A DNA stretch of 9,997 nucleotides, taken from Chloroflexota bacterium (GTDB lineage Bacteria; Chloroflexota; Dehalococcoidia; UBA3495). Numbering within the stretch: the first letter of the stretch is position 1; each line of letters opens with the position of its first letter. The stretch spans positions 1 through 9,997 of the forward strand of contig JACZRM010000045.1 in the NCBI GenBank assembly GCA_022576105.1, given 5' to 3'. This document shows positions 7,335-9,997 of the stretch, in pieces. The notes beneath the pieces were generated by a model, which saw only the letters and a list, made by a program, of their open reading frames with translations, was not told the origin of the DNA and made no database searches. Position numbers and translations under genes: made by a program.

Positions 7335-8966
7335 CTACGGTGGCGGGTCCGGCGGCCATACCGGGTACTGAGCACGGTCAATATTAATATCGCTGGAATG
7401 CATTGACTCCAACTCTGCCAGGGTGCATTCCCCATCATCGTCCAATTTCAGGACTGATTCCGGCAGCAGGTCCACCGGGGAATGCCACTCGTCCAAGAGA
7501 TCGTCACCAGAAGACCGCGCCACGACAAACCCGTTGCTAATCAGCCTAGCGACCACCTCAGTGGAAACCTTTCCGTAAATACTGCGTTCGATCGAGCCAT
7601 GGGCATCCCACAGATTGGCTAGTTCCTCGCTGACGGTCAAGAGGCCGCCAGGAACCCGGGACCCGTAGAGGCGGCTGTTATCATTTCCCACCACCACGAT
7701 CAGGTGCTTGGAATCAACTCTCCCGCCGATCATCAGGTCTACCACCGACGCCATACCCACCCCCAGCGGCTCCTCCAATTCTCTAAAGCGCCAGCCTTCC
7801 CTTCGGCGCAGCGACCTGGTCAACCAATCGTTGCTGGTAGGATTGATTCCCAGAGCGATTTCGCGCTTCACCATGGCATCAAGAATCTTTCTCTGGACTT
7901 GTCTAATCTCCGCCCAATGATCATTGGAGTATAGCCGGTCTGAGTTGGCCAGGTCCTTCACGGCAAACAGGATATTGGCGTTGTCAAGTTGTTGGACCGT
8001 TCCAAACTCGACCAGGTCCTGGAGTATCTTTAGCCGGATTAGCAACTCACCTTCTTGCCAAGACTCTCCAAAATGAACGGCCACCCTGAGCCGGGCCTTG
8101 GCCGCAGCACGCCGGGCGGTGGCCTGCCACTCGGGCCGCCATCGCGAGTCCAAACCCACGCTGTCGATACCCCAGAGCATTCTCTTGGCGTTGGGTCGAT
8201 TGCTGCGCAATTGCTGTATCGCCGAAACCAGGCCTTCAGCCCGCCGGTCGATCAGGTCAGATTTCCCATTGCCTGCGGTGGGATCCAAATCTTGCTTACG
8301 CAGGCCAACCAGGTACTTGACTTGCAAAGGAGCCGGAGAGCCGGCAACTGCGGCATGGGCCCCCCGAAGGGCAGCTTCCGCCGCTTTCTTGAAGCCATCG
8401 GTTTCATGGTCACCCAGAGCGGTGCGGAACCAGACCTCCTCGACGCCATGTTGGGCGTTCTCCAAGGCGACGATCCGGTAAGCCTCTTGGAGCAGTTCCA
8501 GGGAATCCGGGTGGCTGCTCTGGAAAGCCAGCCTGATCAGATTGAGACGGTCATCGGCCTCGTCGAAGTCGGCAGGGTCTCCGGAGAGGGGGATTTTGCG
8601 TTGAAACCATTCCAGCAGTGCATCATCCGACTGCTCAAAAAAGCCCGGGATGTCTTCCTCCCTGACCAAGAAGTCATTCAGGATGTAGTCCAGGAAGGCC
8701 TCCTGGGCGACCTGGTCTTGACGGTAGACCTGTATCACCCGCATCAGCAGCTTGGGATCGCCGATGGACCCGGTGATGTGCTGGTGGGGATTGACCTTGG
8801 TAACCTGGTCCAACAGAGCGACCAGGTCTGGAAAATGCCAACTTTCTTGCTTTACTTTGTTGGCAATCAATAACACGTCCAGCACGTGAGCCAGTTCTGC
8901 CACGCTGATGGAACGTGACTCAATGAGGCCCTCGGGACTGATTGTCGTGTTGCCGATTCGTGGCAT
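7335..8966 (-). CDS. Divergent adenosine-deaminase-fold amidohydrolase, catalytic residues altered
   Basis: This 543-residue protein has the motif order of adenosine/AMP deaminases. After an extra ~55 N-terminal residues comes VNPHQHITGSI (H61, H63), matching the HxH...GS start. Then come WGIDSVG (about 265-271), like the IDLAG strand; VHFGE (H298, E301), like HAGE; INPTSN (374-379), like CPTSN; and VVVGNDNSRLYG (424-435), like NSDDP. Aligned by eye, the four zinc ligands (H61, H63, H298, D429) and the proton-shuttling Glu (E301) are kept. The catalytic His of RIGHG falls on N329 (QQLDNANIL) and the second Asp of the DD pair on N430. Residues from ~455 to the Pro-rich end are not typical of ADA. 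It may therefore use a different substrate or mechanism, or be a binding protein. GAGG eight bases upstream supports the start. It follows folE2 by 86 bp on the same strand. Confidence 0.72.
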   Translation of the reverse strand: MPRIGNTTISPEGLIESRSISVAELAHVLDVLLIANKVKQESWHFPDLVALLDQVTKVNPHQHITGSIGDPKLLMRVIQVYRQDQVAQEAFLDYILNDFLVREEDIPGFFEQSDDALLEWFQRKIPLSGDPADFDEADDRLNLIRLAFQSSHPDSLELLQEAYRIVALENAQHGVEEVWFRTALGDHETDGFKKAAEAALRGAHAAVAGSPAPLQVKYLVGLRKQDLDPTAGNGKSDLIDRRAEGLVSAIQQLRSNRPNAKRMLWGIDSVGLDSRWRPEWQATARRAAAKARLRVAVHFGESWQEGELLIRLKILQDLVEFGTVQQLDNANILFAVKDLANSDRLYSNDHWAEIRQVQRKILDAMVKREIALGINPTSNDWLTRSLRRREGWRFRELEEPLGVGMASVVDLMIGGRVDSKHLIVVVGNDNSRLYGSRVPGGLLTVSEELANLWDAHGSIERSIYGKVSTEVVARLISNGFVVARSSGDDLLDEWHSPVDLLPESVLKLDDDGECTLAELESMHSSDINIDRAQYPVWPPDPPP

Positions 8967-9052: not shown

Positions 9053-9925
9053 TTATTTCGCGTCATTGCTTTTCTTTTTCCGCTCCACTTTGGGCCTGGT
9101 CCACTCAACACAGGCGAAGACGTTGTGGCTATGGATGCTTTCATGATTCACAACTTGCACCTGGAACCAGGAGATCCGCTGGTCCTTCTCCAAGCGTTTG
9201 GCAACGCCGCGAGCTATGTCTTCGACAAAGACCGGGTTGTCGTAGGCCTGCATCGTCACATACCGTTCATCCGGGCGCTTCAGCAGCGGGTACACGGGCG
9301 CCGAGGCTGACTTTTCCGCAATATCAATCAGGTCTTCAGCCCAGACCATGGCCGGTATCCCTTCTTTGGAACTGGAGCATCGGACGTCGATGGTCACATA
9401 ACCGCGCTGGTTGTGCGCTCCATAGTCGCTGATTTTCTTGCTGCAAGGACAGAGGCTGGCTACCGGGACTCGCACTCGAAGAATAAAACGGTCCTCGTCC
9501 CCTTCCAGTTCGCCAATCAATGAACACTCATAGTCCATCAAGGCCTTTGCGCCACTTTCCGGAGCGATTCTTTCCAAGAAAAACGGGAAAGTTACTTCCA
9601 TGTGGGCGTTATCAGCCCCCAACCGCTCCTTCAGCCGCCGGAGGATTACCGGCAGAGAATGTATCGTCATTTCACCCTCATACTCGTTGAGGATCTCAAT
9701 GAAGCGGCTCATGTGGGTCCCCTTGACCTGCTGCCTCAGGTTCACCCCCATGGAGATTTTGGCGACGGTATGCTGCCGGTTCTGGTTTCGGTCGAATACC
9801 ACTATCGGAAAGCTGACATCGCTCACTCCCGTCCGGTCAATGGGAATGCCGCGCTGGTCACTTTGTTTATGCACATCTGCGATAGTGGCGGGTGATGCTG
9901 CATATTTACTGCCGGTCCGAGCCAT
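9053..9925 (-). CDS. folE2: GTP cyclohydrolase FolE2 (type IB, MptA family)
   Basis: This cytoplasmic enzyme opens GTP and rearranges it to 7,8-dihydroneopterin triphosphate, the entry to folate and, through QueD, to queuosine-type 7-deazaguanines. The 290-residue reading shows family features in order: IADVHKQSDQRGIPIDRTGV (15-34), the M-V-L/KGTHMSRF segment (59-75), LCPCSKKISDYGAHNQRG (158-175), YPLLKRPDERYVT (212-224) and ESIHSHNVFA near the end. C159 and H171 have the spacing of the metal-binding Cys/His pair of known FolE2 proteins. The frame is open to a GTG at 9967, but the ATG at 9925 is preferred: it gives MARTGSKY at the usual distance before IADV and has GGGAGAAG upstream. FolE2 is the metal-flexible alternative to zinc-dependent FolE and is often linked to zinc limitation in other bacteria. 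It is co-directional with the deaminase-like gene and probably first in that unit. Confidence 0.95.
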   Translation of the reverse strand: MARTGSKYAASPATIADVHKQSDQRGIPIDRTGVSDVSFPIVVFDRNQNRQHTVAKISMGVNLRQQVKGTHMSRFIEILNEYEGEMTIHSLPVILRRLKERLGADNAHMEVTFPFFLERIAPESGAKALMDYECSLIGELEGDEDRFILRVRVPVASLCPCSKKISDYGAHNQRGYVTIDVRCSSSKEGIPAMVWAEDLIDIAEKSASAPVYPLLKRPDERYVTMQAYDNPVFVEDIARGVAKRLEKDQRISWFQVQVVNHESIHSHNVFACVEWTRPKVERKKKSNDAK

Positions 9926-9935
9926 GACTACTTTT

Positions 9936-9943
9936 CTTCTCCC
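9936..9943 (-). promoter_or_regulatory. Ribosome binding site deciding the folE2 start
   Basis: On the minus strand GGGAGAAG precedes the ATG at 9925 by about 10-13 bases. No comparable site precedes the upstream GTG at 9967, so the shorter protein is favoured. The remaining ~50 bases to the window edge probably hold the promoter, but I see no clear boxes. Confidence 0.5.
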
Positions 9944-9997
9944 TGATAGATACAAGCCGAAGTACACGTTTCATTCACAACTATTTTGCTCAACTCT

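Follow-up and report, generated by a model that had tools for sequence, protein, structure and literature searches.

What does a protein do that resembles adenosine deaminase (ADA), keeps the metal ligands of the enzyme and has Asn at two positions important for its catalysis? The question is raised by a gene for such an ADA-like protein in a 9,997-nucleotide stretch of Chloroflexota DNA (Dehalococcoidia; contig JACZRM010000045.1 of assembly GCA_022576105.1), here called the window, where it lies beside folE2 and the end of queD. A sequence-only reading had placed the motifs HQH (residues 61–63), HFGE (298–301), NPTSN (375–379) and GNDNS (427–431) in ADA order and had taken N329 and N430 as the counterparts of the catalytic His and the second Asp of ADA. 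The residues, N329 included, were verified at these positions, and Asn at both sites is a characteristic that helps to define a genuine but distant subfamily of ADAs.

The AlphaFold2 (AF2) model of the full protein has a mean predicted local distance difference test score (pLDDT) of 83.5 and, together with fold comparison, predicts an ADA-type barrel. Its strands, as assigned here, are in order residues 57–62, 175–180, 215–223, 264–270, 294–298, 326–328, 371–374 and 424–426. HQH, HFGE, N329, NPTSN and GNDNS lie at or just after strands 1, 5, 6, 7 and 8, so the order of motifs that had been proposed is retained in the predicted structure. Profile-profile alignment against 23 ADAs (Prob 97, E = 8.1e-11, 299 columns) pairs HQH with HxH, HFGE with HAGE, NPTSN with CPxSN and GNDNS with NTDDP of the ADAs. 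About 50 residues precede the barrel in the model. The C-terminal region had been put at about 90 residues; about 54 (490–543) lie beyond the barrel, and in the model they are a low-confidence tail that adds little. A sequence search of the PDB gave no match with the single protein and two unrelated matches (E = 0.49 and 1.9) with its alignment. PF00962 (A_deaminase) did not match the window protein up to E = 1; it matched two of 42 members (best E = 0.034), and none at or above the Pfam cut-off. No Pfam domain, CARF included, exceeded its cut-off in the window protein. A helix-turn-helix protein was considered and rejected, as the HTH_31 match is under the cut-off and inside the barrel.

Conservation was counted over an alignment of 42 rows, with gaps from partial proteins set aside. 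The two Asn do not vary at random: N329 is found in 41/41 and N430 in 38/38 rows, and both are present in all 14 rows that are less than 60% identical to one another (taken from 35 long rows). The metal ligands H61 (38/39), H63 (38/39), H298 (42/42) and D429 (38/38) and the general acid E301 (41/42) are also kept, the sole exceptions being H61R in P0024, H63Q in P0007 and E301K in P0041. Further invariant columns are T65 (39/39), D328 and N331 (41/41 each) and N428 (38/38). After strand 7, N379, R384, R387, W392, R393 and R395 are found in 40/40 rows each where the column is filled, and this invariant cluster (379–395) is a candidate anion-binding patch. The 132 ordinary ADAs that were aligned to one of their number, 121 of which come from one search or are its query and which are thus not a sample of all ADAs, have His at the first site in 132/132 and Asp at the second in 130/132, with Asn in 2.

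The correspondence of N329 to His238 of mouse ADA depends on the register of strand 6. A fragment model of residues 1–334 (mean pLDDT 79.6) was aligned to solved chains. Of the 12 mammalian ADA1 rows listed, 11 (3t1g, 1fkx, 1add, 1uip, 7rtg, 1uio, 1w1i, 3km8, 1fkw, 3iar and 1ndv) set residue 334 opposite 243, and the twelfth, 1krm, the numbering of which is 3 lower, sets it opposite 240. Residue 329 would therefore equal His238, provided that the last six residues are ungapped; fragment residues 329–334 have pLDDT below 50. Several results go against this placement. The profile alignment sets the strand-6 His of ADA opposite residue 320, simple register scores favour F321 over N329 in two narrower scoring windows, the strand-6 motif score over the whole protein peaks at H173 rather than near 329, and the strand-4 motif score also missed its expected place. 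On the other side, the same simple scores favour N329 over F321 in two wider scoring windows, residue 320 is variable where 329 is invariant, and the full model places 320 in a helix (308–321) ahead of the sixth strand. Even in the alternative register the window protein has no His. With the models weighted above the profile and register scores, it is likely that N329 is the counterpart of His238. The assignment of Asn to both sites is thus upheld by the structural register, which keeps N329 in the place of His238 and brings no other His or Asp there, and for the Asp site also by the profile alignment.

In mouse ADA, according to PMC9483566, His238 is the base that turns the zinc-bound water to hydroxide and Glu217 is the acid. 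The ADA-like family keeps the acid (E301) and lacks the base. PMC12669630 describes TaqCad1 as having Asn549 at the position of Asp296 and Gly264 at that of Asp19, with weak deamination of adenosine and conversion of ATP to ITP; its N549D variant gave no reaction with ATP. Asn at the second-Asp site alone is therefore not new, and N430 is compatible with an active enzyme on a non-adenosine substrate. For Asn at the position of His238 no report was found in the one open-access library searched, and among the papers listed there (in one search 20 of 1,512), some of which deal with pyrrolopyrimidine and archaeosine clusters, nothing was recognised as this ADA-like family. An anionic substrate other than adenosine would be in keeping with the arginines R384, R387, R393 and R395 and with T65, which replaces Asp19, the acidic residue that binds ribose.

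Table 1. Features of the window around the ADA-like gene.
Feature	Position	Strand	Basis
ADA-superfamily protein gene, 543 aa	7335..8966	minus (8966 to 7335)	open reading frame (ORF), family, AF2 model, fold comparison, profile alignment
folE2, GTP cyclohydrolase type IB	9053..9925	minus	PF02649, E = 4.1e-90; NF010200 FolE2, 275.6 bits against a cut-off of 215
queD (6-carboxytetrahydropterin synthase), 3' end (final 22 codons plus stop), truncated at the end of the window	9928..9996	minus	frame translation NETCTSACIYQGEEK, by eye

The neighbours may indicate where such a substrate comes from (Table 1). The folE2 start is the ATG at 9925 as read from the reading frames, the GTG at 9967 being also possible, and 86 bases separate its end from the start codon of the ADA-like gene; relatives of the window FolE2 in the PDB are 2r5r, 8g6c and 3d2o. 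The queD piece is too short for a profile search and was identified by eye, its tail resembling the C-terminal ETCTSGCxYxG of solved QueDs and of those at two related loci (L001 and L002, below). Downstream of the ADA-like gene lie convergent plus-strand ABC-transporter genes. The sequence-only reading had named neither the strand of the gene nor folE2 and queD. Plus-strand coding within 7335–8966 was rejected: frame 1 is interrupted by stops, and the other ORFs there, the longest of 272 aa, are regarded as shadow frames, given that it is the minus-strand product that belongs to a conserved family. A promoter scan found none, with 1.4 expected. Elsewhere in the window, at 1121–1156, two genes face each other and both seem to be without their 5' part: one is a minus-strand ABC exporter whose membrane domain matches its 274-position profile from position 40, the other a plus-strand piece that has the FtsX C-terminal domain only. 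The DNA may have been rearranged here, or the two ends may have been joined in assembly.

The gene is readable in two public metagenome-assembled genomes (MAGs), one from the SAR202 cluster (G001, locus L002) and one from Chloroflexi (G002, locus L001). The order queD, folE2, ADA-like gene is found in 3/3 loci, and we infer that the three genes form one operon. In both MAGs an EamA permease gene stands behind the ADA-like gene; genes for a lipoprotein with an Oxidored_molyb domain and a sensor kinase then follow (L002:12519-14594; L025:1329-3625, the kinase of L025 by eye). Ordinary FolE is also present in both, with two matches in G002, so the operon folE2 is an additional GTP cyclohydrolase gene. 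QueF and QueC, over their cut-offs, and a QueE-like protein are encoded elsewhere in both. G001 has a separate run of queF, queD, queC and queE away from the ADA-like gene, and its operon queD is probably an additional copy. In G002 the sole other match to the PTPS domain is a 462-aa protein with 33.6 bits against a QueD cut-off of 89.25; as it is so far below, the operon QueD may be the QueD of this genome. The 462-aa protein (L026:4119-5504, minus strand) has Cys-rich repeats, seen by eye, and its PTPS domain is C-terminal.

The ADA-like family is rare. It was found in 1/393 and 1/294 genomes of the class in two overlapping draws and in 2/197 genomes of the order, and in 1/8 and 1/50 in the two families. 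In the order, folE2 was found in 4/197 genomes, two of which have the ADA-like gene; the remaining two were without an ADA-like match, and none was seen by eye beside their folE2. Of 400 genomes of the phylum, 3 were matched: G001, and two others weakly (E = 2.6e-4 and 3.4e-4). The latter were rejected as members, since their ORFs carry the ordinary RIAHG motif and the one that was scanned is a normal A_deaminase. The protein database gave 41 members and, in a second search, 49; the two with an organism name are from Chloroflexi and Dehalococcoidia. The phage and viral collections searched yielded no member, and a phage or plasmid gene was also rejected: there is no confirmed relative in viral contigs, none in phages, and one plasmid match at chance level (E = 4).

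FolE2 converts GTP to dihydroneopterin triphosphate, which QueD converts to 6-carboxytetrahydropterin. The best explanation of the locus, at a little under an even chance, is that the ADA-like protein is a metal-dependent hydrolase whose substrate is a pterin-like intermediate derived from GTP. Within the queD–folE2 operon, this single-metal hydrolase of the ADA superfamily would be the third enzyme. It would most likely hydrolyse, and probably deaminate, one of the GTP-derived heterocycles made by FolE2 and QueD or a close derivative, and the permease encoded behind it in two genomes would carry the substrate or the product through the membrane. We infer that the protein is catalytic, that its reaction is deamination and that its substrate is pterin-like. 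Because the neighbours are FolE2 and QueD, the search for the substrate is narrowed to a handful of compounds, and a dedicated pterin-type pathway is the simplest reading of the redundant folE2 and, in G001, the probably redundant queD. It is doubtful that the locus represents an undescribed pterin or deazapurine pathway, in which an ADA-superfamily enzyme with an Asn-Asn active site and without the canonical catalytic His would carry out a so far unknown reaction on a pterin derived from GTP, or on the triphosphate of that pterin, the queD–folE2 operon of SAR202/Dehalococcoidia-type Chloroflexota being dedicated to this pathway. If the protein is active, the ADA scaffold can hydrolyse its substrate with Asn where the described general base would stand, and this would suggest that uncultivated Chloroflexota have a metabolite derived from a pterin that is so far undescribed.

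A number of observations weigh against the hydrolase explanation. ADA chemistry takes place at C6 of the purine. The equivalent carbon of a pterin, C4, already bears an oxo group, so that another mode of binding would be needed for a pterin. The described base of mouse ADA, His238, is absent and no replacement base was identified. Asp296-to-Asn in mouse ADA is reported in PMC12669630, citing Sideraki 1996, to have a severe effect on binding and catalysis, both being impaired. The gene order is known from three loci, and the L001 and L002 proteins are not extra members, as they share exact 50-residue pieces with rows P0022 and P0037. The QueE-like proteins of the MAGs reach none of the QueE cut-offs (best E = 3.9e-28 and 1.4e-29); the QueD in the separate que run of G001, with 87.1 bits, narrowly misses its own cut-off of 89.25. 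Lastly, by eye, the QueD of L002 (L002:8558-8920) has Asp in place of the Cys in the CGRLHGH motif of the L001 copy and solved QueDs; its product may thus differ from 6-carboxytetrahydropterin, and the intermediate may differ between species.

The absence of the His238 base also leaves room for a pseudoenzyme: with a pterin or a nucleotide bound in the former active site, it would either sense that ligand or act as a scaffold for FolE2 and QueD. Every member that has the column carries replacements of two residues that matter in ADA, one of them the base of the ADA mechanism proposed in PMC9483566. Against this, all five ligand and acid residues are kept, each in 38/39 rows or better, and no other domain exceeds its Pfam cut-off. 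Decay of the active site should ordinarily have removed metal ligands or the acid too, and their retention makes a pseudoenzyme quite improbable. The sequence-only reading had left a choice among altered chemistry in a separate subfamily, an unusual substrate and a pseudo-enzyme; of these the remote ADA subfamily stands, the unusual substrate gains indirect support because the gene sits in an operon with queD and folE2, and the pseudo-enzyme has become less likely.

Alternatively, the protein might belong to the queuosine route, for example as a salvage enzyme for a 7-deazaguanine nucleoside or nucleotide, with the adjoining queD and folE2 feeding preQ0 synthesis. The QueF, QueC and QueE-like proteins of both MAGs fit this role, as does the L001 QueD, which is very near solved QueDs, carries CGRLHGH and may be the only QueD of G002; this operon queD might serve queuosine synthesis as well. 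The separate que run of G001 speaks against it and, to our knowledge, preQ0 is made by its known route without a step of this kind. In the window, L001 and L002 the gathering score was attained by none of the Rfam families, among them the preQ1 riboswitches; the scan, over eight sources in all, gave just two tRNAs, both in L024. A queuosine role is improbable. The protein may instead be a nucleotide deaminase like Cad1 or RdrB, acting on ATP, GTP or another nucleotide, with the proximity of folE2 reflecting the use of a purine nucleotide and not pterin chemistry; we consider it unlikely.

Comparison with known systems places the protein as follows. Relative to the PF00962 ADAs (mouse ADA1, 1add; Pseudomonas aeruginosa, 3ou8), His238 is replaced by N329, Asp296 by N430 and Asp19 by T65, and the profile alignment shows extra N-terminal helices and insertions; like ADA, the protein keeps the HxH, strand-5 His and strand-8 Asp ligands and the general acid Glu. 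A known defence effector was rejected, as no PADLOC family matched the window protein up to E = 1; RdrB of RADAR is set apart from it by this model search. ADAL/MAPDA, the N6-methyl-AMP deaminase, acts on methylated AMP according to entry titles. Cad1, the ATP deaminase of type III CRISPR, is fused to a CARF domain, whereas the ADA-like protein has none, and the ADA-like family is altered at the same two positions as TaqCad1 (N430 and T65) and at a third, N329.
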